A stretch of DNA of 60,584 nucleotides, taken from an uncultured Candidatus Thioglobus sp. Lineage in GTDB: Bacteria; Pseudomonadota; Gammaproteobacteria; PS1; Pseudothioglobaceae. The position numbers were made by a program, and so were the translations under genes. Position 1 is the first letter of the stretch. The number at the start of each line of letters is the position of its first letter. Shown here in pieces: positions 38,885-59,309 of the stretch. Below the pieces are notes generated by a model, which did no database searches, had not been told where the DNA came from, and worked only from the letters and a program-made list of their open reading frames with translations. The stretch lies in NCBI GenBank assembly GCA_905614365.1, contig CAJQSO010000007.1:1-60584 (forward strand), read 5' to 3'.

Positions 38885-40753
38885 TCAAGCTTCATACAAA
38901 ATATCAGTAATATCACTTTGCGGTTTAAAGCCCGGCACAGCTTTTATTAGTAACTGTCGCAGCTTAGCCTGATCGCCGCTATCAATAGCCTCTTTAAGCC
39001 CATCAAGAATTAACTTTAAATCATCCCAGGCCAGCATCTCTTCCTCTGCGCGCAGGATCATTGGATTGTCAGTTTTGGAAACATTGCCGCCGATCAGCAG
39101 CTCCTCATAAAGCTTTTCGCCTGGCCTCAGACCGGTAAACTTAATCTCAATATCGCCGTTCGGGTTAAGCTTATCCTTAAGCCTTAGGCCGCTCAAACGA
39201 ATCATCTTTTCAGCCAGGTCTAAAATTCGAACAGGCTCCCCCATATCAAGCACAAACACATCCCCGCCCTTCGCCATAGCGCCCGCCTGAATAACCAGCT
39301 CAACAGCCTCGGGTATGGTCATAAAATAACGCTGAATTTTAGGATCCGTCACGGTAACCGGCCCGCCCCCTTTAATCTGCTCTCTGAACAGCGGCACCAC
39401 CGACCCACTGGAATCGAGCACATTGCCGAATCGTACCATACTAAAGCTTGTGCTGCTAACTACTGCCAAGGACTGCAATACCAATTCAGCCACGCGCTTT
39501 GTGGTCCCCATAGTATTGGTTGGGCGCACCGCCTTGTCCGTTGAAATAAGCACAAAAGTATCTACCCCATGATCGATCGCAGCCTGCGCGCAATTAAGGG
39601 TGCCAAAAACATTGTTACTCACCCCTTCAGCGTTGTTCGACTCGACCATCGGTACGTGTTTGTAGGCCGCCGCGTGATAGATTGTATTTACACCCAAGTG
39701 CCCCAGGACATGACTTAAGCGTTTACGGTTAGTAACAGAGCCCAGCATTGGCAGTATCTCAACATTGGGTATACCAACATTAGCGAGTTCTTTATGAATC
39801 CGGTACAGGGCGAACTCACTCTGATCAAACAGCACCAACACTTGGGGCTTTAAACCTAGTATCTGCCGGCACAGCTCAGCACCAATCGAGCCGCCAGCAC
39901 CGGTCACCATGACCACTTTATTGATAATATTTAGGCCCAATAACTCACTATTGACATCAACAGAAACACGCCCTAGCAGATCCTTGATGCTTACATCACG
40001 CAAATCAGCAATTCTTAACTTGCCCTGAGCAAGCTCTAAAACACCTGGCAAGGAGCGCACAAGTAGCCGATAAGGCTCCAAAAAATTGATAATTTTATTG
40101 CGCTGGACTCTTGATATTGCGGGCATGGCCAGCAACACTTCAGTGGCATTTTTTTGCTCAATCAGGTGGTCTAGATCCTTTCTTGAAAAAACCTCGATGC
40201 CATTAATAGATTGACGCTGCAGCTGAGAGTCATCGTCAATAAAAGCCACCGGCCTATACTCAGCCGACTGCATTAAAGCAATCGACAGCTGCCTGCCTGC
40301 AGAGCCTGCTCCATAAATTATCACTCTGATCGTTTTTTTATCCAGGGCCTCTGAGAGTAGCCAGCGAGCAATCATCCGTGAGCCACCAATGATTACAATG
40401 CCCAAGAGCCAGTTAATTAAAGTTACGGAGCGTGGTATATCTTGAAGGTTACTCATAAAGCCAATCATGCTCCACAGCAAGGCATACAGCGTTACCGCCT
40501 GGACAATAGACCACAACGCCTTAAAGCCGATATAACGAATAACCGCTCGATAAAGCCCAAAGCGCACAAAGACAGGAACGGCAATGAAAGGCGCAACTAA
40601 TACAATCCAGACAAGGTCACCCCCTGGAAAGTATAAATATCCAAGTCGAATTGAAAACGAGGCCAGTAGAATAGCCATAAGGGCGACAGAATCAAAAACC
40701 AACAGCATAAGTTGTTTTTGAAATCGCGACAAATTAATGAGTGTTTTTCTCAC
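38885..40753 (-). CDS. wbpM: WbpM/FlaA1-like UDP-HexNAc 4,6-dehydratase
   Basis: A 622-aa membrane-bound dehydratase. N-terminal part has about four membrane helices (20-40, 46-68, 82-104, 112-130), then a CoA-binding-like Rossmann domain (VIIYGAGSAGRQ) and a C-terminal SDR domain with TGAGGSIGAEL, FVLISTDKAVRPTNTMGTTKR, where Met replaces the SDR Tyr as in WbpM. It makes UDP-4-keto-6-deoxy-GlcNAc, the entry to QuiNAc, D-FucNAc and bacillosamine. Last gene of the cluster, the place wbpM also holds in Pseudomonas O-antigen loci. Clearly higher GC than the next genes upstream. Confidence 0.93.
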   Translation of the reverse strand: MRKTLINLSRFQKQLMLLVFDSVALMAILLASFSIRLGYLYFPGGDLVWIVLVAPFIAVPVFVRFGLYRAVIRYIGFKALWSIVQAVTLYALLWSMIGFMSNLQDIPRSVTLINWLLGIVIIGGSRMIARWLLSEALDKKTIRVIIYGAGSAGRQLSIALMQSAEYRPVAFIDDDSQLQRQSINGIEVFSRKDLDHLIEQKNATEVLLAMPAISRVQRNKIINFLEPYRLLVRSLPGVLELAQGKLRIADLRDVSIKDLLGRVSVDVNSELLGLNIINKVVMVTGAGGSIGAELCRQILGLKPQVLVLFDQSEFALYRIHKELANVGIPNVEILPMLGSVTNRKRLSHVLGHLGVNTIYHAAAYKHVPMVESNNAEGVSNNVFGTLNCAQAAIDHGVDTFVLISTDKAVRPTNTMGTTKRVAELVLQSLAVVSSTSFSMVRFGNVLDSSGSVVPLFREQIKGGGPVTVTDPKIQRYFMTIPEAVELVIQAGAMAKGGDVFVLDMGEPVRILDLAEKMIRLSGLRLKDKLNPNGDIEIKFTGLRPGEKLYEELLIGGNVSKTDNPMILRAEEEMLAWDDLKLILDGLKEAIDSGDQAKLRQLLIKAVPGFKPQSDITDILYEA

Positions 40754-41046: not shown

Positions 41047-41841
41047 TTAATTATATTTTTTAAAAGTATATATTCCTAAACCATATGTAATTTTATCTAT
41101 CACTTCTGTTATATCTCTGTTAGTGTGAAGATCCCCATTATCATCAACATAATCAAAGTTAATTAGTTCTAGCTCTTGTTTAACCCTTTTAATCTTTAAA
41201 ATTGTTTCTGGATGAGATATCCTATGAGCATTAAAATGAACCTCATCTCCTAAACCTATTGGCACACTAATATATAACTTACCACTTTTTTTAAGCATTT
41301 TAATTAAATTATTTACTCCATCTTCTAAGCCATTAACATTTATCGGATCAGAATATCTACCTAAACCAAAATGTTCCAAAGAATGAAGGCAAGATAAAGA
41401 ATCTGTTGTTTTTAACTTATCGCTAGAATTCATAAAGTCTACCTGTCTAAAAATAATATTTTTATGTACGCAATTTAATTTTCTTACATCATATACCTCA
41501 ATTTCACGAAATGATGCAACATGGGCAACAAAACCATCAACTCTCGAAGCAACATCAACGTGTCTTATTGGATTATCCTCATAAATATAACTTGCTATCA
41601 AAAGATCTTGATGAAAATATTGACTTGAGGCAGAACCACTCTCTTCTTGATAATCACCTAAGATAGGATAAATATGAGTAATTTTTCCACCATATTTTTT
41701 CCATAGAAATAGTTCTCTTATAAATCTTGGTAAATTTTTAGCAGACTTAAAGAATAAAACTGGATTTAAACCAAATGTAGCAAAAATTACTAAAATATTT
41801 TTGATAAAAGGTATTTTTTTAACTATATTTTTTAAACTCAT
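41047..41841 (-). CDS. DUF268 family protein
   Basis: A 264-aa protein of the DUF268 type, seen in surface-glycan clusters. A hydrophobic stretch near residues 12-32 may anchor it. The core HVDVASRVDGFVAHVASF, then EVYDVRKLN, LSCLHSLEHFGLGRY and LYISVPIGLGDEVHFNAHR looks like a degenerate class I methyltransferase fold (a Gly-poor motif I, an SLEHFGLG motif after it). No function is proven. It is very AT-rich and stands alone between two gaps. Confidence 0.75.
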   Translation of the reverse strand: MSLKNIVKKIPFIKNILVIFATFGLNPVLFFKSAKNLPRFIRELFLWKKYGGKITHIYPILGDYQEESGSASSQYFHQDLLIASYIYEDNPIRHVDVASRVDGFVAHVASFREIEVYDVRKLNCVHKNIIFRQVDFMNSSDKLKTTDSLSCLHSLEHFGLGRYSDPINVNGLEDGVNNLIKMLKKSGKLYISVPIGLGDEVHFNAHRISHPETILKIKRVKQELELINFDYVDDNGDLHTNRDITEVIDKITYGLGIYTFKKYN

Positions 41842-42279: not shown

Positions 42280-42840
42280 TTAATGAGAAACCCCATCTTT
42301 TTTTATTACCTTAATAAACGTTAGCCAAATAATCTTAATATCCAACCACAAAGATTGATGATGTAGATACTCAACATCCAAATCTACTTTCTGAGGAATA
42401 GGTAATTCATCACGTCCATTAATTTGAGCCCACCCCGTTAAACCTGGCACTAAGTCATGGACACCTTTTTCAGTTCGTAAAGCAATTAAATCATCTTGAT
42501 TAAATAACGCAGGACGAGGTCCAACAAAACTCATATCACCCTTGATGATCGACCATAATTGAGGTAGCTCATCCAAACTCGATTTGCGTAAAAAGTCACC
42601 TATCGGTGTCAAAACACTCTTAGGATCAGCTAATAAATGGGTTGCCACTTCCGGCGTATCAATATTCATACTTCGGAATTTAGGCATTTTAAAAATTACA
42701 TTATCCTTACCCACTCGATCTGACCAATAAAAAATAGGGCCTTTTGAAGTCAGCTTTACCAATACAACAACTATGATAACTGGTAACGATAATAATACTA
42801 CTGTCACCAATATCAGGATTAAATCAACGAGTCTCTTCAT
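42280..42840 (-). CDS. PglC-like monotopic phosphoglycosyl transferase
   Basis: A 186-aa sugar-1-phosphate transferase that loads the first sugar onto undecaprenyl phosphate at the inner membrane. N-terminal re-entrant hydrophobic segment (LILILVTVVLLSLPVIIVVVL), a basic FKMPKFRSM strand, the catalytic Asp-Glu pair in SSLDELPQL, SFVGPRPA and PGLTGWAQINGR. It is the small (PglC-size) form without extra N-terminal helices. The expected donor is a UDP-N-acetyl-6-deoxyhexose such as the products of the dehydratases in this cluster; exact sugar unknown. Confidence 0.92.
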   Translation of the reverse strand: MKRLVDLILILVTVVLLSLPVIIVVVLVKLTSKGPIFYWSDRVGKDNVIFKMPKFRSMNIDTPEVATHLLADPKSVLTPIGDFLRKSSLDELPQLWSIIKGDMSFVGPRPALFNQDDLIALRTEKGVHDLVPGLTGWAQINGRDELPIPQKVDLDVEYLHHQSLWLDIKIIWLTFIKVIKKDGVSH

Positions 42841-42917: not shown

Positions 42918-44519
42918 CTAAAAGCTATCCCAATTACTTTCAATATATTCAGCTACTCTTATGGCATTTGCTGCTATTGTCAAACTAGGGTTAGCCCCCC
43001 CACTTGAAGGAAAAAATGACGCGTCGACAATAAATAAGTTACTAATATCATGAGATCTATTGTTTTTATCTAACACACTTTGAGTTGGGTCTAGACCAAA
43101 GCAACATGTGCCACATGAGTGACCAAAGTTAATATTATTTTTGCCATTTAACTTAATTACCCTGTATTTAGACTTAACTAACTTTGATAAACTTTTCCTA
43201 AGCGCTAAAGATCTAACTCTCAGCTCATCTCGATAGTTATACTCAAACTCTAAATCTCCATTATTACCAATAAACACTCTATTATCTAAATAAGGGATGT
43301 CCTCAATAATACTTGCAAACATTGTTGATCCTCTAAAAACCCACTCAGCAAAGGAAGCAATAAAATTTAGGACAAAATTATTACTTCTAAGTTTTATTTT
43401 TAACTTACTTAATTTCCGAGAGATTACCCCTCCTAAATATTTTTTTGTAAACCAGTTGAAACCCATTTCTTGTATATTACCGCATTTCATATTTCCAACA
43501 AAATAGAACTGATTTGATGAAATCTGTCTCGAGGAATAGTATTTTCCAACACGCCATTTTGGCTGAATAGTGAAAATATCGCTTGCATGAAACATAAGAT
43601 TCTTCCCAACCATACCGCTTGAATTGGCAAGCCCATTGGGCCATACGTCAGAGCTAGATCTCATCAGAAGAGCTGGGGTAAAGAGAGCACCAGCAGCAAG
43701 AACAATTACCTTTCCGGTAATGTTAAGTGTTTTATTATCTATATTACATTCAACAAGTTGTGCATGATCTTTTGATGCGTGTATTTTTGTAACATTACAA
43801 TTCACCAAGATTTTTGCCCCATACCTAGATAACGCTGGCTCAACACATAGTCTACTTGTATCTCCTTTACCACGATGCATACATACAACTCCCGGACAAC
43901 CCTCTTCGCATATATTGAAATTTACAGCCATGTGAGATCGGTATGGGTTCACACCTAAATCATCCAGGTCCTGGAAAAGTTTTTCTCCACTATTAGTAAG
44001 ATTATTGGGAGTTAATAAATTAGATTCAGTATCTAAATTACACGGGTCTTGAGTCCCAGAGACCTCAAACAATGATTCAGCCTTACGATAATATTTTGTA
44101 AATGTTTTATAAGCAATGGGCCAACGATCAGGCAAGTGTGAGTCACAAATCTCAGGATAATTTTTTTTGGGCTCAAAGTCAGAAGCGTGCATCCTTTCGA
44201 GTTGCGCTGCATATAAATTCGTCGATCCTCCGACGCCATTACCTAAAGAAAGAAATGAATCAAGTCGGCCAAATGTAGTTTTACCTCGTATTTTATGCGG
44301 CCATTGGCCCCTTTCTTTTCTTGATTTTACTGAGTCATCAACGTTTTGCTTATCAAAAAAATCTGGTAGAAAAACGCCATCTTCTAAAAATAAGACTTTT
44401 TTACCTAATTTAGCAAGCTCGTAACCAGAAACACCACCCCCCATTCCAGCGCCAATAACTATAACATCCCATTGTTGATTTTCAGGATCTAGAGGAATGA
44501 ATTCTTCAATATTAAACAT
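42918..44519 (-). CDS. GMC-family FAD oxidoreductase in glycan cluster
   Basis: A 533-aa flavoprotein. N-terminal FAD site DVIVIGAGMGGGVSGYELAKLG (about 19-40, shown in two parts: DVIVIGAGMGGG and VSGYELAKLG), substrate-entry segment SLGNGVGGSTNLYAAQ, a Cys-rich stretch CEEGCPGVVC followed by KGDTSRLC (about 203-225), and the GMC C-terminal domain with the catalytic His in GHSCGT, VDASFFPSSGGANPS and an Asn in place of the second active-site residue. No signal peptide is seen. GMC enzymes oxidise alcohols, often sugars or sterols. It stands 9 bases after the CgeB-like glycosyltransferase, so it probably oxidises a hydroxyl of a sugar or lipid-linked sugar; this is inference. Confidence 0.88.
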   Translation of the reverse strand: MFNIEEFIPLDPENQQWDVIVIGAGMGGGVSGYELAKLGKKVLFLEDGVFLPDFFDKQNVDDSVKSRKERGQWPHKIRGKTTFGRLDSFLSLGNGVGGSTNLYAAQLERMHASDFEPKKNYPEICDSHLPDRWPIAYKTFTKYYRKAESLFEVSGTQDPCNLDTESNLLTPNNLTNSGEKLFQDLDDLGVNPYRSHMAVNFNICEEGCPGVVCMHRGKGDTSRLCVEPALSRYGAKILVNCNVTKIHASKDHAQLVECNIDNKTLNITGKVIVLAAGALFTPALLMRSSSDVWPNGLANSSGMVGKNLMFHASDIFTIQPKWRVGKYYSSRQISSNQFYFVGNMKCGNIQEMGFNWFTKKYLGGVISRKLSKLKIKLRSNNFVLNFIASFAEWVFRGSTMFASIIEDIPYLDNRVFIGNNGDLEFEYNYRDELRVRSLALRKSLSKLVKSKYRVIKLNGKNNINFGHSCGTCCFGLDPTQSVLDKNNRSHDISNLFIVDASFFPSSGGANPSLTIAANAIRVAEYIESNWDSF

Positions 44520-44528
44520 AATATAACC

Positions 44529-45557
44529 CTAGACCAAATCAACGGTCTTAAGAATCGCTAAAGCTCTGTCGTCTATTTTATTTGGACTATTTAGTATCAT
44601 TTCATAAGACTCATCAGCAATTTTTTGTCTTTCAGACTCATTCTCAAGATAATAATTACATTTTTCCTCCAACTCTTGGGCAGAGGAGAAGCATGCTATA
44701 TTTTTATCTTCTTGAAAAATAGAACTAATTTTCTCTGATCTTTCAGATAACTGAAATGCCCCACATGCAGGTACTTCATAGTTCCTGAAATTAGATGTAT
44801 CACGATTCTCTAAAGTCAGCATATTAAGGTTAATTTTACATGCATTAACAACTTTGCTCATTTCAGGAAAATATATAGGAGGCATACACTTAATTGATTT
44901 TTTGAATGCCTTTCCTGATTTATACCAACCCTGACCCCAAACTCTTACATTTAAGGACCGTAGACCATAAATATACTCCTCTCTTCTCGGACTCCAATTT
45001 GCAACAAAAACAACGTCACTTCCGTATTTATTTATTTCGCTCCTCGATAATGAAAGCTTTTTTTGAATAGTCGGCATGCAGTACCAGTCAAGTGCAACTA
45101 CTTTTTTCACTCCTTTATTAAGATATTCATCAAATAAGTGCTCTCTTGGACTAAAAATAACATCATATAAGTGGATTGAATCTACCACATACTTAGAGCT
45201 ACTTATCGGATTATTAAAGTCGTCTGGATCCCAATTAACCATATAATCGACATTGTTCTTTACTCGACGCAAAGTTTCTGGCGATAAATTTGCTCCTTTC
45301 AAAACAACCAACAAATTATATCTAACTGCTTCTGTTTCAGCTAAAAAATCCTTGTTTATTTTGTTAGAAATTGATGACATCAACAATCTATCAAGAATTT
45401 TATTAGTAATTGATGGACTTGCAGTTCTGTAGAAATGACTTGTATAGTCAAATAAAGAAGCCTTATGACCAAGTTTATTAAAGCTATCTACAAGGTTTGG
45501 CCCCATTGCCCAGCCTATATCTTCTCCGTATATTAATATATCTAGTTTTTTTGTCAT
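44529..45557 (-). CDS. CgeB-like glycosyltransferase
   Basis: A 342-aa protein with the GT-B layout of the CgeB/DUF3880 group. N-terminal half starts DILIYGEDIGWAMGPNLV; the C-terminal half has VFVANWSPRREEYIYGL, the acceptor-donor region NMLTLENRDTSNFRNYEVPACGAFQLSE (given here as NMLTLENRDTSNFR and NYEVPACGAF), and LEEKCNYYLENE, typical of Glyco_trans_1_2. No donor can be assigned. AT-rich, and part of the same block as the GMC gene. Confidence 0.85.
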   Translation of the reverse strand: MTKKLDILIYGEDIGWAMGPNLVDSFNKLGHKASLFDYTSHFYRTASPSITNKILDRLLMSSISNKINKDFLAETEAVRYNLLVVLKGANLSPETLRRVKNNVDYMVNWDPDDFNNPISSSKYVVDSIHLYDVIFSPREHLFDEYLNKGVKKVVALDWYCMPTIQKKLSLSRSEINKYGSDVVFVANWSPRREEYIYGLRSLNVRVWGQGWYKSGKAFKKSIKCMPPIYFPEMSKVVNACKINLNMLTLENRDTSNFRNYEVPACGAFQLSERSEKISSIFQEDKNIACFSSAQELEEKCNYYLENESERQKIADESYEMILNSPNKIDDRALAILKTVDLV

Positions 45558-45677: not shown

Positions 45678-46634
45678 TCATAGCCCTTCTGCCGCTTTCT
45701 TCAAGCCTTCATCCAACGATAGAGGTGGAGTCCAGCCCAACAAGTGCCTGGTTTTTTCAATATCTACCTGCAGAGATCCACATAGACGCAGGACCATGTC
45801 CCGCTTACCCACCATGCCTGCCGCCAGTTTCAGCCAACTCACCGGAACCGGAACCAAACGCGCTGGGTGGCCCAGGGCCTGACCCATGCGGCACAATAGC
45901 TCGGTGGAGGAAACATCTTCGCCGTCGGAGACCAGAAAAGTCTGGTTGGCTGCAGCGGGATGCATAAGACAAGTCACGAGCAAGTCGACGAAATTGTCCA
46001 GCCCCACCAGGCTGCGTTGGTTATGAATGGTGCGCAGCGGCAATGGCACGCCGCGCTTGAGCCAGCGCATCATGGTGGCAAAGTTGGCTTTGACGCCGGG
46101 GCCATATATCAAAGGCGGACGAATAATGACCACCTCCATGCCAGATTGCCCAGCGATCTCGCGGAGACCCTGCTCGGCTTCCATCTTGGACACGCCATAA
46201 GCGTCCAGTGGCGCAGGCGCATCGTCTGCCATGAACGGGTGCCCAAGTTGCGTCACCTCGCCATTGACCTTGATGGAACTGACAAATACAAAACGCTGCA
46301 CACCGGCTGCAGCTGCCTGACGGGCCAGGCTCAGTGTGCCTTGCACATTGACCCGGCGAAACTCCTCCAGCGGGTCAGCGGCCCTATCCACCATCACATG
46401 CACTCGTGCGGCAAGGTGAACGACAACCTCACAACCCGTGAGTGCATCGCGCCAATCGTTAGCTTCGTCACACTGGAAGAACGAGATGTTTTTATGTTTT
46501 GGAATCCGCCTTTCACGAGATGTACAAACTATTTTGGTGATCCCAAGTTTGTGCAGACTTACTATCAGTGCTTGCCCAACAAAGCCTGTTGCACCTGTCA
46601 CCAAAACAGAGGGAAACTCAGAGGATTCTAGCAT
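45678..46634 (-). CDS. NAD-dependent sugar epimerase/reductase, WbpV/WbjF-like
   Basis: A 318-aa extended SDR. Nucleotide site LVTGATGFVGQA, FVSSIKVNG, and YGVSKMEAE with the catalytic Tyr and Lys, then RPPLIYGPG. The nearest named relatives are the 4-ketoreductases WbpV/WbjF of Pseudomonas O-antigen clusters, which act on UDP-4-keto-6-deoxy-GlcNAc (WbpM product) to give QuiNAc-type sugars. Most of the gene is GC-rich (40 of 60 bases in the line from 46321), while the first 60 or so codons are close to the AT-rich surroundings. Its start overlaps the upstream glycosyltransferase by 17 bases. Confidence 0.88.
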   Translation of the reverse strand: MLESSEFPSVLVTGATGFVGQALIVSLHKLGITKIVCTSRERRIPKHKNISFFQCDEANDWRDALTGCEVVVHLAARVHVMVDRAADPLEEFRRVNVQGTLSLARQAAAAGVQRFVFVSSIKVNGEVTQLGHPFMADDAPAPLDAYGVSKMEAEQGLREIAGQSGMEVVIIRPPLIYGPGVKANFATMMRWLKRGVPLPLRTIHNQRSLVGLDNFVDLLVTCLMHPAAANQTFLVSDGEDVSSTELLCRMGQALGHPARLVPVPVSWLKLAAGMVGKRDMVLRLCGSLQVDIEKTRHLLGWTPPLSLDEGLKKAAEGL

Positions 46635-47700
46635 AGGCAGAAGAAATTTTGTCCCATATATAAAGTTGGTCGGCCAGTTGTTTCATTTTTATACCTATCT
46701 TGGCAAGCAAATCATCATCAAGACTATTCAATAATATTCGCAGCTCATCCGACGAATTAAAAAATAACCCCTGTCCGCACGTTGTTTCTTGATTAAAAAT
46801 ACAGTCAAATGCAATAATTGGCAAACCTAAACTCATAGCCTCAACCAATGACGGATTAGTTCCACCGGCACTGTGCCCATGGATGTAGACATGACAGGCT
46901 GAGCGCATTTGATTTAAAATTTCATGATCGTATATCGGGTCGAGTAAATGTATATGAGGTATTTTTCCATATTTCTTCCTTAATTTAATTCCATAACTAC
47001 TATTCTCCCAATTACCAACAATAACTAAATCTAGGCCACTATAAAATTCAAATGATTTAATAATAAGATCCAGATTATTCTCCGGTTCAATTCGGCAAAC
47101 CTTAAATGCATAACGCAATCTATCTAAGCCGTATTGAGTCAAAATATTTTTATCGTATGTGGGTCTATATGCATGATCACCACCATATGCAATCATTTCA
47201 CTACTTCTACCGTATTCACACTTTACATAATCTTGAATCGCCTTATTGTCAGTCACTACAACATCGGCAAATCGGACTGCTATACCTTCAGAAAGCTTCA
47301 AAAACCATTTTGCAAAGGGGCTCCATTTGGAACGTTTCCACTCAAGTCCATCTATATTAACAATCAATTTTTTATTTGAAACCAATTTCACTATTGGTAA
47401 AAAAATGCAACCCGAAATACCCAAAATTAACATCGTATCCGCATATTTTATCGCTCTGAGCATTGCTATAAGATCATATGGAATACTCTGTACACCATTT
47501 GCATTTAGGTTTATATAATCTAGATGCACTCCATTAAAACTCTTCGGCCTTTCAGAGTATTTTTTACTACTGCAGTAGACAGTAAAATCAAATTGTGTTT
47601 TCAAATTTTGCGTAAGGTGATTAACAAGAGTTTCCCATCCACCATATATAGCGGGAAGTCCTACTGTGCCAATAATCGCAACTTTTTTCAGATGAACCAT
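46618..47700 (-). CDS. DUF1972-type GT4 glycosyltransferase (WbjE-like)
   Basis: A 360-aa GT-B glycosyltransferase. The start VAIIGTVGLPAIYGGWETLV is the DUF1972 signature of rhamnosyl/FucNAc-type transferases; the C-terminal half has RIEPENNLDLII, VYIHGHSAGGTNPSLVEAM (the E-x7-E-like donor site) and LPIIAFDC. It follows the UDP-sugar cassette by 35 bases and likely transfers the L-HexNAc made there; donor and linkage are inferred. Confidence 0.88.
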   Translation of the reverse strand: MVHLKKVAIIGTVGLPAIYGGWETLVNHLTQNLKTQFDFTVYCSSKKYSERPKSFNGVHLDYINLNANGVQSIPYDLIAMLRAIKYADTMLILGISGCIFLPIVKLVSNKKLIVNIDGLEWKRSKWSPFAKWFLKLSEGIAVRFADVVVTDNKAIQDYVKCEYGRSSEMIAYGGDHAYRPTYDKNILTQYGLDRLRYAFKVCRIEPENNLDLIIKSFEFYSGLDLVIVGNWENSSYGIKLRKKYGKIPHIHLLDPIYDHEILNQMRSACHVYIHGHSAGGTNPSLVEAMSLGLPIIAFDCIFNQETTCGQGLFFNSSDELRILLNSLDDDLLAKIGIKMKQLADQLYIWDKISSAYARIL

Positions 47701-47735: not shown

Positions 47736-48863
47736 TCAAACTTTATGCCAAACGGTACGGTTTACGTAATCAACGTAACTCAAAACTATTCTGAGAACTT
47801 TTTTTGAAACAGCACCTCCTTCATAGTCCAATACTGGCTTCATCACACGCTGTGATTTATCATACTGCGCTATGGTGACACGAACTGAATCCAGCACACG
47901 ATCTTTCTTCAAGCCGCACATTATAAGGGTACCAACATCCATACCTTCAGGCCGTTCATGTGCGTTGCGGATGGTGATTGCTGGAAAGTTAAGCAAGGAG
48001 CCTTCTTCAAAGATGGTGCCGCTGTCGGACACGACGCATAACGCTTCAACCTGAAGCTTTATGTAATCGAAAAATCCAAATGGCTTAAGAAATTGAATAT
48101 GCGGATTGAACTTAGCCAATTCCATACCATCCAGTCGTTTCTTGGTTCGAGGATGAGTTGAAACAATCACCGGAATATCGTATTGCTCGGCCAAAGCATT
48201 CAGCGTTTCAACCATATTGGTCATATTTTCTGGACTATCAATATTTTCTTCGCGGTGAGCACTAACGATAAAAAACTTTCCAGACTTTAATCCCATACGT
48301 TGCAGCACATCCGACTGCTGTATCTTTGGCATGAAGTAATCAAGCACCTCCTGCATGTGTGAGCCAGTCTTGATAATAGTTTCCGGGCGAATACCCTCAG
48401 AAATCAGGTAGCGGCGGGCATGCTCTGTAAGTACTAGATTAATATCACTCAAGTGATCCAAAACCTTACGGTTTAGCTCTTCTGGCACGCGCTGGTCGAA
48501 ACAACGATTGCCAGCTTCCATATGAAACACTGGAATCTTTCTGCGTTTCGCAGCAATAACCGCAAGACAGGAATTAGTGTCCCCATAAAGCATCACCGCA
48601 TCAGGATTTTCTGTTTCCATAACCGCATCAGATTTTTCAATCACTCGCGCAATGGTCTGTGCTGCATTCTCGCCAACCGCCTCCAGAAAATAATCTGGCT
48701 TACGGATACCAAGGTCTTCAAAGAATAGTTGGTTCAACTCGTAATCGTAGTTCTGCCCGGTATGCACCAGGATATGCTGGGTATGCTGATCGAACTCAGC
48801 GATCACCCGGCTCATTTTAATTAGCTCAGGACGCGTGCCCACAATTGTCATAACTTTAAGCAT
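47736..48863 (-). CDS. wbvD: UDP-N-acetylhexosamine 2-epimerase, WbvD/WbjD type
   Basis: A 375-aa WecB-family 2-epimerase. Motifs: VGTRPELIKM, VHTGQNYDYELN, MLYGDTNS, HMEAGNR, SAHREENID, VSDSGTIFEEG. In the three-gene pathway from UDP-GlcNAc it inverts C2 of the 6-deoxy-L-sugar. The start overlaps the dehydratase/epimerase gene by 8 bases. MnaA-type UDP-GlcNAc/ManNAc activity is less likely given the neighbours. Confidence 0.88.
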   Translation of the reverse strand: MLKVMTIVGTRPELIKMSRVIAEFDQHTQHILVHTGQNYDYELNQLFFEDLGIRKPDYFLEAVGENAAQTIARVIEKSDAVMETENPDAVMLYGDTNSCLAVIAAKRRKIPVFHMEAGNRCFDQRVPEELNRKVLDHLSDINLVLTEHARRYLISEGIRPETIIKTGSHMQEVLDYFMPKIQQSDVLQRMGLKSGKFFIVSAHREENIDSPENMTNMVETLNALAEQYDIPVIVSTHPRTKKRLDGMELAKFNPHIQFLKPFGFFDYIKLQVEALCVVSDSGTIFEEGSLLNFPAITIRNAHERPEGMDVGTLIMCGLKKDRVLDSVRVTIAQYDKSQRVMKPVLDYEGGAVSKKVLRIVLSYVDYVNRTVWHKV

Positions 48864-49866
48864 TTAATTCCCCCTTAATGTAATCCAGTTTCAACAATAG
48901 CATCTTTATCTGCTCGACGCTTAAACGATTTGTGTTGTGCGAGGTGTAGTCATCCAAATGGGATATCTTTACTTCGCCCTCACTGAAGAATTTAGCGTAG
49001 TTGAGATCACGATTATCGGCTGGGATACGATAGTAACTACCCCTGTCCTGAGCCTGCGCCATTTCTTCACGTGAAATAAGAGATTCATATAACTTTTCGC
49101 CATGGCGAGTACCGATTATGTATGTCTCATCCTTACCAGAAAAAAGCTCGGTGATCGCTTGTGCGAGATCCGCTACGGTCGAAGCGGGCGCCTTTTGAAC
49201 AAAAATGTCACCCTGCTGACCATGTTCATACGCATAGAGCACCAAATCCACCGAGTCTTCCAGCGACATCAGAAAGCGCGTCATGCTTGGGTCGGTCACA
49301 GTCAACGGTTTGCCGTCCTTGATCTGCGACACAAACAAAGGAATAACGGAACCCCGTGAGGCCATCACGTTACCATAACGTGTCGCACAGAATACTGTTT
49401 CACCCTCTTTTTGCATACGCGCTTTGGCGATCATGACTTTCTCAGCCATCGCCTTGGAAATACCCATCGCATTGATAGGATAAACCGCCTTGTCTGTACT
49501 CAGTGCCACTACACGCTTGACACCGTTCGCGGTGGCCGCGTTCAACACATTCTCGGTGCCGATGACATTAGTGCGCATCGCCTCCATCGGATAAAATTCG
49601 CAAGAAGGAACCTGTTTTAAGGCAGCTGCATGGAACACATAGTCCACTCCCTTCATCGCTTGATACACACTATCATAGTCTCGAACATCGCCGATATAAA
49701 ACTTCAACTTGCTGTTATTTAGCTCAATACGCATATCTTCCTGCTTCTTTTCATCACGGCTGAATATGCGTATCTCGCACACATCAGTTGAAAGGAAACG
49801 CTTGAGCACGGTATTTCCAAAAGAACCCGTCCCGCCGGTAATCATTAATACTTTATCTTTAAACAT
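48856..49866 (-). CDS. wbvB: UDP-GlcNAc 4,6-dehydratase/5(3)-epimerase, WbvB/WbjB type
   Basis: A 336-aa soluble SDR of the CapD/FlaA1 family without membrane helices. ITGGTGSFGNTVLKRF at the N-terminus, HAAALKQVPSCEFYP, LSTDKAVYPINAMGISKAM (Met in the Tyr place, Lys kept), TRYGNVMASRGSV and the PFxxQI-like FVSQIKDGK. It converts UDP-GlcNAc to UDP-4-keto-6-deoxy-L-HexNAc species. First catalytic step of the three-gene set; 10 bases after the reductase gene. Confidence 0.9.
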   Translation of the reverse strand: MFKDKVLMITGGTGSFGNTVLKRFLSTDVCEIRIFSRDEKKQEDMRIELNNSKLKFYIGDVRDYDSVYQAMKGVDYVFHAAALKQVPSCEFYPMEAMRTNVIGTENVLNAATANGVKRVVALSTDKAVYPINAMGISKAMAEKVMIAKARMQKEGETVFCATRYGNVMASRGSVIPLFVSQIKDGKPLTVTDPSMTRFLMSLEDSVDLVLYAYEHGQQGDIFVQKAPASTVADLAQAITELFSGKDETYIIGTRHGEKLYESLISREEMAQAQDRGSYYRIPADNRDLNYAKFFSEGEVKISHLDDYTSHNTNRLSVEQIKMLLLKLDYIKGELNA

Positions 49867-49876
49867 ATCAGTATCC

Positions 49877-50731
49877 CTATTTATATGCGTTCATCAATTT
49901 AATCATATCTTCCCACTCTGGAGCGACATAGCCAGTCGCCTCACTGAAACGTGTGGCATTAAGCGAGCGATCAATTACCAGTATATCATCTGCAACAATC
50001 TCGATGGATTTGCCATACTCTCTGGAGATCATCTTCAGAAGTTCAAATTTATTGATTGGTTTCGCGGCGACATGGTACAACCCAGACAACTCAACATTTG
50101 GAATCACCACATCACGAATGACTTGCGCAAAGATCACTGTCGGAAGCCCAGAAAAAACAGCTCGCGTATATCCTTTGCAGCTTCCCCTTTGCGACAGGAA
50201 CCAGTCCAACAAGCCATACTTGCTTTGTAATTCATGACCAATAGTAGAGGTACGCAAGGTGATCGTGTGTGGATAATACACTTCACCCATCACCTTGGAC
50301 TTACCATACGCGTCGCGCGCATCGGAAAAATCAGTTTCGGTATAACCGCCGCTCTCACCTGAGAAAACGCAATCAGTACTGACATGCACGAGTCGCGCCC
50401 CGATCAACTTGCACAGTCCAGCTAGCCGATGTGGCATTAGGGCGTTGATTGGTAGAAATATTAAAGGATCATCAGCTTCTTGCTTCTGCTTGGTCAGACC
50501 AGCACAGTTGATAACCACATTTGGACGGATAGCATCCAGCACTTTCATCAAAGCATCTGGATATTCAACATCAACTCCATTTACCAATCTTTCGGCAATC
50601 GCGGCTGGGAAAAAATGCTTTACGCTTTCACTGCGAATCGTACCAAAGACTTCCCAATCTTTGTTCTCACTCATTACACGCAACACCGTACTCCCTATCA
50701 TCCCGCTGGCACCAACAACTAATATTTTCAT
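49877..50731 (-). CDS. wbvR: RmlD-like UDP-sugar 4-ketoreductase, WbvR type
   Basis: A 284-aa extended SDR resembling RmlD: LVVGASGMIGSTVLR, VINCAGLTKQK, HVSTDCVFSGE, DAYGKSKVMGEV with Tyr and Lys, TLRTSTIGHE. It lacks the C-terminal cupin part found in WbjC/CapF/FnlB (about 370 aa). That size favours the UDP-L-RhaNAc/L-QuiNAc route (WbvB, WbvR, WbvD of V. cholerae O37) over the L-FucNAc route. First gene of the reductase-dehydratase-epimerase trio. Confidence 0.82.
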   Translation of the reverse strand: MKILVVGASGMIGSTVLRVMSENKDWEVFGTIRSESVKHFFPAAIAERLVNGVDVEYPDALMKVLDAIRPNVVINCAGLTKQKQEADDPLIFLPINALMPHRLAGLCKLIGARLVHVSTDCVFSGESGGYTETDFSDARDAYGKSKVMGEVYYPHTITLRTSTIGHELQSKYGLLDWFLSQRGSCKGYTRAVFSGLPTVIFAQVIRDVVIPNVELSGLYHVAAKPINKFELLKMISREYGKSIEIVADDILVIDRSLNATRFSEATGYVAPEWEDMIKLMNAYK

Positions 50732-58103: not shown

Positions 58104-59045
58104 TTAGTTTTGAGAAAAGTAATTTCTAAAGTATTTGATGGTTTCCTTGAGGCCATCTTCAAGCGAAACTGTTGGCTGCCAAGCCAATTTATCTTTGGCA
58201 AGAGAGATGTCAGGCTGCCTTTGTTTTGGATCATCTACTGGTAGCGGCATAAAAATGAGTTTGGACTTTGATCCCACAAGTTTGATGACTTTTTCGGCAA
58301 GTTCAAGCATAGTGAATTCGCAAGGATTGCCCATATTGACCGGACCCATAAAGCCGCGATCGCTTTGCATCATCCTTACAAATCCCTCAATCAGGTCATC
58401 TACATAGCAGAAAGATCGGGTCTGCTGGCCATTGCCGTAAATGGTAATATCTTCGCCCTTAAGCGCTTGCACGATGAAATTACTCACGACTCGCCCGTCA
58501 TTGGGATGCATGCGTGGGCCATAGGTGTTGAAGATGCGCACGACCTTAATATCCAGATTGCATTGACGGTAATAGTCAAAAAATAACGTCTCCGCACATC
58601 GCTTGCCCTCATCGTAACAAGACCGAGGCCCGATAGGGTTAACGTTGCCCCAATAGGCCTCAGTCTGCGGATGCTCTACAGGGTCCCCATACACTTCGCT
58701 GGTAGATGCCTGTAAAATGCGCGCCTTAACGCGCTTAGCAAGGCCTAGCATGTTGATGGCGCCATGCACGCTAGTTTTGATTGTATGCACAGGGTCATGC
58801 TGGTAGTGGACGGGGCTAGCAGGACAGGCCAAGTTGTAGACTTGGTCCACCTCGACATAAAGCGGAAAAGTTACATCGTGACGAATCAGCTCAAAACGGC
58901 GGTGGCTCAGCAGGTGTCCAATATTTTGCTTCGAACCAGTAAAGAAGTTATCAACACATAACACGTCCGCACCATCTTTGATAAGACGATCACACAGATG
59001 TGATCCCAAAAAACCGGCACCACCTGTTACTAAAATTCTATTCAT
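58104..59045 (-). CDS. UDP-glucuronate decarboxylase (UDP-xylose synthase)
   Basis: A 313-aa extended SDR of the UXS family that converts UDP-glucuronate to UDP-xylose. [69 protein letters not shown] (with Tyr and Lys) and [17 protein letters not shown] are family signatures. I start at the ATG at 59045 because GGAG lies 8 bases upstream; frames further out lack such a site. UDP-glucuronate would need Ugd, not in the window, using UDP-glucose from GalU. Product could be xylose or a 4-keto pentose for this glycan. Confidence 0.94.
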
Positions 59046-59309
59046 ATTCATTTCTCCAGTAAAAGGGGATTGACCTTCCCTTGTTTCCATCGTCCGACAG
59101 GAGGATTTCATGATACCAGCTTTCCTGACACACATTAAATCAGTCATTCAGATATTGCCTCGGTGACTTGTAGTTAAACTTATGCGTCATTTGTTAGTGT
59201 TAGTTGACAGGCAGCAACATAGCAGAAAAGTTGATCACCAAAGCTGGCTTTGATTTAAGAGACAGTTTTATTTATTACGGTCTTTTTTTTTAAGACGATA
59301 AAATATCAC

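Follow-up and report, generated by a model that had tools for sequence, protein, structure and literature searches.

The stretch of DNA considered here (the window, 60,584 nucleotides from an uncultured Candidatus Thioglobus sp.) carries a polysaccharide gene cluster on its minus strand, within which an intact open reading frame (42918..44519, minus strand, 533 aa) encodes a flavin oxidoreductase of the GMC superfamily, as indicated by Pfam, alignment and structure modeling. In the best reading of its sequence and predicted fold, this protein is a cytoplasmic, FAD-dependent dehydrogenase belonging to the sugar-dehydrogenase branch, and we give an even chance to the proposal that it oxidizes a hydroxyl group of a sugar of the O-antigen repeat unit (O unit), as a solo offshoot of a sugar-editing cassette made of a GMC enzyme and a short-chain dehydrogenase/reductase (SDR). 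Indeed, a large part of this GMC subfamily works in polysaccharide biosynthesis, often together with an SDR, as follows from the SDR partnership, the locus counts and the tallies of neighboring genes detailed below. A preliminary description of the window had suggested the oxidation of a sugar hydroxyl, which we retain as the best reading in light of the sugar-dehydrogenase affiliation, the catalytic His and Asn residues, the O-antigen-type cluster and the relatives present in other polysaccharide clusters.

Family, fold and active site of the GMC protein

The protein falls in the GMC superfamily with 53.0 bits for the Pfam model GMC_oxred_N (cut-off 23) and 67.8 bits for GMC_oxred_C (cut-off 24.6). 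The FAD motif GAGMGG occupies residues 23–28, all invariant FAD and catalytic residues are kept, and the GHSCGT active site noticed earlier is indeed present at residues 466–471. The protein was also correctly described as devoid of a signal peptide, the FAD-binding strand starting 16 residues into the chain both in the sequence and in the model. Searching PDB profiles returned the FAD-dependent glucose dehydrogenase (FAD-GDH) alpha subunit from Burkholderia cepacia (6a2u, 8.6e-68) and the fructose dehydrogenase (FDH) large subunit from Gluconobacter japonicus (7w2j, 3.3e-56), followed after a gap by the next entry at 9.3e-31. The AF2 model (pLDDT 93.4, pTM 0.94) gave the same picture with VIA-align, with Z scores of 40.3 for FDH and 39.8 for FAD-GDH and 33.9 for the next family, so that by profile as by fold the nearest relatives are the FAD sugar dehydrogenases containing a 3Fe-4S cluster. 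Other assignments were rejected, the NCBIfam scores being far below the respective cut-offs for BetA (63.1/605 and 46/732 bits), pyranose oxidase (37.2/545), MftG (59.8/387) and cholesterol oxidase (53.1/850), and no better NCBIfam family was found for 64 aligned relatives.

FAD-GDH and FDH, whose substrates are sugars, share with the window protein the catalytic His/Asn pair and its spacing, as well as the position of a Cys-rich loop. His467 and Asn510, which are invariant across the 64-row alignment from which residue conservation was derived, align with His476 and Asn519 of FAD-GDH, and the spacing of 43 residues is identical in both proteins and also corresponds to that of FDH H1147/N1190, the variant pair named in PDB titles. 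The Asn preceding the catalytic His in FAD-GDH and FDH is replaced by a Gly (G466) in the window protein. Unlike the latter, FAD-GDH and FDH belong to larger complexes that also contain a cytochrome c subunit and a hitchhiker or small subunit; no gene for a hitchhiker (gamma) or cytochrome c subunit was found in the window cluster, where the neighbors of the GMC gene are polysaccharide genes.

Regarding the Cys-rich stretch, it was correctly noticed in the preliminary description: CEEGCPGVVC spans residues 204–213 and the Cys of the following RLC is C225. The part encoded by 43863..43910 (minus strand, residues 204–219) coincides in position with the 3Fe-4S loop of FAD-GDH. This stretch is not peculiar to the window protein and represents a subfamily motif, C-x2-C-x4-C-x3-C; the window protein has C204, C208 and C213, and Gly217 where relatives have the fourth Cys. 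In a profile alignment, the second, third and fourth Cys of the motif fall on Cys213, Cys218 and Cys222 of FAD-GDH, an enzyme in which Cys212, Cys218 and Cys222 bind the 3Fe-4S cluster and Cys213 is engaged in an inter-subunit disulfide (PMC6719666). In the window protein, C213 corresponds to Cys218, C208 to the disulfide-forming Cys213 and G217 to Cys222, with no Cys at the place of Cys212 and C204 and C208 nearby. The known set of three ligands is hence incomplete, although an Fe-S cluster might be coordinated differently. Of note, in a Rhizobium subclade (L079, L080, L093, L098) the whole Cys motif is lost while the catalytic His and Asn are kept, which argues that the motif is dispensable for the basic chemistry.

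A widespread subfamily and its partner SDR

Across 84,980 species genomes, 443 matches were obtained, the best 80 of which were fetched; these relatives, 34–44% identical to the window protein, come from at least seven phyla (Pseudomonadota, Myxococcota, Planctomycetota, Bacteroidota, Acidobacteriota, Actinomycetota, Omnitrophota and others) and form an uncharacterized and widespread subfamily. Genes at the fetched loci were called with a purpose-made codon model, which reproduces closely the annotated genes of locus L030, and counts were made over 87 loci. The standout neighbor is one family of classical SDRs, found immediately next to the GMC gene in 20 loci, two genes away in two and fused to it in one, which amounts to 23 of the 87 loci, and present nowhere else within seven genes. 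This family is well delimited by a profile built from 17 members, which score 229–382 bits against at most 141 bits for other SDRs. The immediate adjacency of 20 of the 22 separate SDR genes corresponds to a hypergeometric probability of 3.6e-14, a statistic that ignores shared ancestry. As the partner SDR precedes the GMC gene in the clade of the window protein and follows it in another clade, the link between the two genes has survived rearrangement. The fused case was found on a Shinella plasmid (L034:9917-12319), where the SDR is attached to the C-terminus of the GMC protein in an 800-aa polypeptide encoded beside an AT3-SGNH acyltransferase gene.

Loci were counted as polysaccharide loci when polysaccharide genes of at least two additional kinds lay at most seven genes away from the GMC gene, a definition satisfied by 19 of the 23 SDR-bearing loci and by 36 of all 87 loci. 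Pfam tallies of the neighbors, which cover the top 25 families and from which a rare CgeB could escape, include flippases, GT4 and GT2 glycosyltransferases, Wzy_C, AT3-SGNH, WecG and Poly_export. GMC enzymes had been described as rare in clusters of this type; this is true for the host order (one genome out of 83) and does not extend to polysaccharide clusters at large.

Other arrangements were also encountered in the subfamily. In Massilia-type loci (L059, L061, L062, L064, L066, L070, L103 and similar), the GMC gene is accompanied by another SDR and by ThiF, nitroreductase-like, NTP_transf_5 and GNVR genes in varying combinations, which constitute a separate recurring set; the SDR following GMC in these loci is a different one (24% to the partner family) and was left uncounted. 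On a Leptospira interrogans plasmid (L032:7947-9434), a distant GMC relative lies amid genes for glycosyltransferases, an SDR, an acyl-CoA dehydrogenase and an aminotransferase.

The window protein belongs to a 19-row clade together with proteins from Myxococcota and Sphaerotilaceae polysaccharide clusters (SH-aLRT support 99; the same set is recovered with 99/96 in a more careful tree), in which its end branch is long (1.7 in the careful tree). The GMC protein of locus L050 (Burkholderiaceae), with 42% identity, may be its sister. A firm sister relation was abandoned, since the two share only seven rare residues, about as many as unrelated pairs do. The shared cluster context stands independently of the tree: L050 is an O-antigen cluster containing manC, gmd-like and fcl-like genes, Wzy_C, a flippase-like gene, DUF268, GT11, two further glycosyltransferases and WbpM, together with an extended SDR adjoining an initiating sugar-phosphate transferase (PGT) that shares 65% identity with its window counterpart over 156 aa. 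The L050 GMC gene (L050:9983-11527) runs against the direction of every neighboring gene called. No partner SDR was found in the L050 cluster, the best match in that genome being 39% identical over part of its length. The nearest matches to the L050 protein in a Burkholderiales sample (L144–L147) proved to be Massilia-type loci and were discarded as further O-antigen cases.

The polysaccharide cluster of the window

The cluster surrounding the GMC gene corresponds to the PGT/WbpM type of O-antigen/capsule cluster. The polysaccharide cluster named in the preliminary description is confirmed by genes for a Bac_transf PGT, WbpM, FnlA/B/C-like proteins, several glycosyltransferases and a methyltransferase. 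Following the minus strand, it is headed by a polytopic protein, polymerase-like by eye and without a Pfam match, and continues with an SDR resembling UDP-glucuronate decarboxylase, GT11, GT2, an RmlC-like protein, an SDR, a GT4, a methyltransferase, a WcaI-like GT4, FnlB, FnlA, FnlC, a GT4 with DUF1972, an extended SDR, the CgeB-like glycosyltransferase, the GMC protein, the Bac_transf PGT, DUF268 and WbpM. No Rfam match was obtained in 38000–60584.

Downstream of the GMC gene, and separated from it by 77 bp, lies the initiating sugar-phosphate transferase gene (42280..42840, Bac_transf in Pfam), followed by the gene for a DUF268 protein (41047..41841, Pfam), which is methyltransferase-like by eye, and by the one for a UDP-GlcNAc 4,6-dehydratase named WbpM-type by resemblance (38885..40753, Polysacc_synt_2, 397 bits), all on the minus strand like the genes that follow. 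On the other side, a gene at 45678..46634 encodes an extended SDR (Epimerase in Pfam) that does not belong to the partner SDR family and is likely the 4-keto reductase for the first sugar. Judging from pathway knowledge, WbpM, this SDR and the PGT would together provide UDP-QuiNAc or UDP-FucNAc as the first sugar, transferred as its 1-phosphate. The G+C content of this SDR gene, 0.555 between neighbors at 0.33–0.36, suggests a recent import, and together with WbpM (0.471) it is the compositional outlier of the cluster. Further along are the genes for a GT4 glycosyltransferase with DUF1972 (46618..47700), Cps2T-like with a score below cut-off, and the fnlC/fnlA/fnlB-like genes (47736..50731) of the UDP-L-FucNAc route, among which FnlC passes the cut-off for a WecB-type epimerase while the names FnlA and FnlB stand as the best readings of proteins that score below cut-off or lack a cut-off match. 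The extended SDR encoded at 58104..59147 is presumably UDP-glucuronate-decarboxylase-like.

The gene immediately upstream of GMC (44529..45557) encodes a 342-aa CgeB-like glycosyltransferase (PF13524; Glyco_trans_1_2 in Pfam, 92.3 bits for a cut-off of 25), and both reading frames were found as initially described, with nine bases between the CgeB-like stop codon and the GMC ATG. Among the other 82 genomes of the host order (a sample of 83 including the window genome, with thresholds of E≤1e-40 for GMC and E≤1e-6 for CgeB), no close relative of either protein was found, and the two genes are thus accessory genes of a variable locus. Their low G+C content (0.363 and 0.334) had been regarded as a shared feature; the values are real and carry no meaning, the background elsewhere in the window being mostly 0.32–0.40, and AT-richness as a mark of common origin was ruled out as it equals the genome background. 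A viral or plasmid origin was likewise discarded, with no CgeB relative in viral contigs, three weak plasmid matches and, for GMC, a 60-residue phage match.

Proposed chemistry, alternatives and significance

As the GMC protein is cytoplasmic, its substrates would be nucleotide sugars, lipid-linked intermediates or free sugars. We propose that one O-unit sugar would lose a hydride at a secondary (or primary) hydroxyl, with His467 as the base and Asn510 as its partner, giving the keto (or aldehydo) form of that sugar. In many of the relatives' polysaccharide clusters, the adjacent or fused SDR would then reduce or otherwise process the ketone, so that the GMC–SDR pair may edit or invert a carbinol center by oxidation followed by reduction. 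For the window copy, which has no such SDR at its side, the keto group would stay in the glycan or be handed to another enzyme. A similar oxidize-then-reduce logic is known from DprE1/DprE2, the decaprenylphosphoryl-ribose 2'-epimerase, in which a flavin oxidase and a classical SDR encoded by separate genes oxidize and then reduce a lipid-linked sugar. By analogy, the GMC enzyme and the classical SDR might form a widespread DprE1/DprE2-like epimerase module that edits polysaccharide repeat units inside the cell, from which the window (and perhaps L050) would have dropped the SDR, leaving a keto sugar in the surface glycan, an extension that we regard as tentative and rather improbable as a whole. 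The likeness does not include the flavin half, DprE1 being an unrelated flavoprotein of the VAO type whereas the window model matches GMC folds, nor the SDR, which the window lacks. Neo11 and BtrQ, GMC-type 6'-dehydrogenases of aminoglycoside biosynthesis, also oxidize a hydroxyl of a glycosidic unit and are likened here by description; they differ in that they operate in secondary metabolism, on a primary 6'-hydroxyl that is then transaminated.

Several observations weigh against an O-unit sugar dehydrogenase derived from a GMC–SDR cassette. No member of the subfamily has a demonstrated substrate, and the nearest characterized enzymes oxidize free sugars and deliver electrons to a cytochrome subunit that was not found here. 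As many as 51 of the 87 loci fall outside our definition of a polysaccharide locus (some contigs being short). In a Sphingobium locus (L033), the GMC gene lies in a degradation-like cluster. Within the clade of the window protein, a Kordia GMC gene (L044:10001-13295) overlaps a radical SAM-SPASM gene, and no gene for polysaccharide synthesis was identified nearby, which suggests a different role in this subclade. The grouping with L050 is weak, with 82/67 in the careful tree (98 in the quick one), where two long branches meet. Lastly, no partner SDR was found in the window cluster and the best match in the host genome assembly (1.14 Mb, 75% complete) is only 29% identical; at this completeness, an SDR gene may have escaped assembly.

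The alternative that survives best, which we nonetheless deem unlikely, is that the ketone formed in the window is reduced by another reductase, either the extended SDR at 45678–46634 or an unlinked enzyme, resulting in a net epimerization with no keto sugar left. It is favored by the many GMC relatives paired with a reductase-type SDR in polysaccharide clusters and by the several extended SDRs of the window cluster. However, reduction of the WbpM product is enough to account for the SDR at 45678, which is an extended SDR of the Epimerase type; L050 likewise has an extended SDR next to its PGT, and the partner SDR has no ortholog in the genome assembly. Somewhat less probable still is a role in general metabolism, in which the GMC enzyme would act on a soluble alcohol or free sugar and would simply have traveled along with the cluster. 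GMC enzymes are mostly catabolic, several relatives are found outside polysaccharide clusters, and the gene was acquired in a variable locus with no close relative elsewhere in the order; against this stand the recurrence in polysaccharide clusters of Myxococcota and of Alpha-, Beta- and Gammaproteobacteria, the SDR partnership with its fusion, and the choline dehydrogenase, pyranose oxidase and MftG models scoring far below cut-off.

The preliminary description had emphasized the pairing of GMC with the CgeB-like glycosyltransferase, and one could imagine that the transferase adds the sugar that the GMC enzyme oxidizes. The two genes lie on the same strand with a 9-bp spacing and are probably on one transcript; no promoter or terminator signal above chance was detected at the pair. 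The notion of a recurring pair did not withstand the neighborhood comparison: in a sample of 369 genomes of the class, Gammaproteobacteria (E≤1e-20 for GMC, E≤1e-10 for CgeB), relatives were present in 24 and 14 genomes, respectively, and, the window genome aside, occurred together in a single one, 2.5 Mb apart. No second case was found in the 83 genomes of the order or in the plasmid collection either, and in eight genomes holding near GMC relatives no CgeB relative was found. CgeB relatives, which are distant in the genomes and plasmids searched (at most 31% identity), keep other company instead. In the polysaccharide clusters of two other genomes (L148 and L149), they lie 3–4 kb from a DUF268 gene, a gene that is rare in the class (9 of 274 genomes) and that recurs with GMC in L050; in L149 and L151, they occur with a UDP-glucuronate-decarboxylase-like gene that is, respectively, 77% and 70% identical to that of the window. 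L149 also has FnlA (61%), FnlC (55%) and a WcaI-like glycosyltransferase in common with the window, and no GMC gene was found there, so that the window cluster resembles an L149-type cluster that has gained a GMC gene. A functional GMC–CgeB pair is therefore quite improbable, and our guess, prompted by the decarboxylase-like gene, is that the CgeB-like enzyme uses UDP-xylose; a single-sequence model of this enzyme provided no usable fold (pLDDT 34). As for a degenerating or inactive GMC protein under relaxed selection, evoked by the long end branch and the Gly at the fourth Cys position, it is very improbable given the intact reading frame, the conserved FAD and catalytic residues, the high-confidence model and the Rhizobium proteins that keep the catalytic residues without the Cys motif.

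Sugar editing in a surface polysaccharide remains our preferred reading for the GMC enzyme. A hint that such enzymes can matter for surface polysaccharides comes from Caulobacter crescentus, in which a transposon mutant of CC_1278, likened here through its description as a GMC family oxidoreductase, stained remarkably weakly for holdfast and formed less biofilm (PMC13001252). The open literature searched yielded no paper that places GMC enzymes in O-antigen or exopolysaccharide clusters, and the GMC–SDR cassette proposed here from gene context, with its fusion and its solo O-antigen offshoot, appears new to that literature. The usual reading of polysaccharide clusters invokes NAD-dependent enzymes that work on nucleotide sugars. 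If our proposal is true, rare sugars of surface glycans could also be made by a second chemistry, based on a flavin-dependent sugar dehydrogenase and its dedicated reductase. The GMC–SDR pair recurs from Myxococcota to Rhodobacteraceae, once as a fusion, and is directly testable in vitro. These findings point to a little-described way by which bacteria may edit the sugars of their surface.

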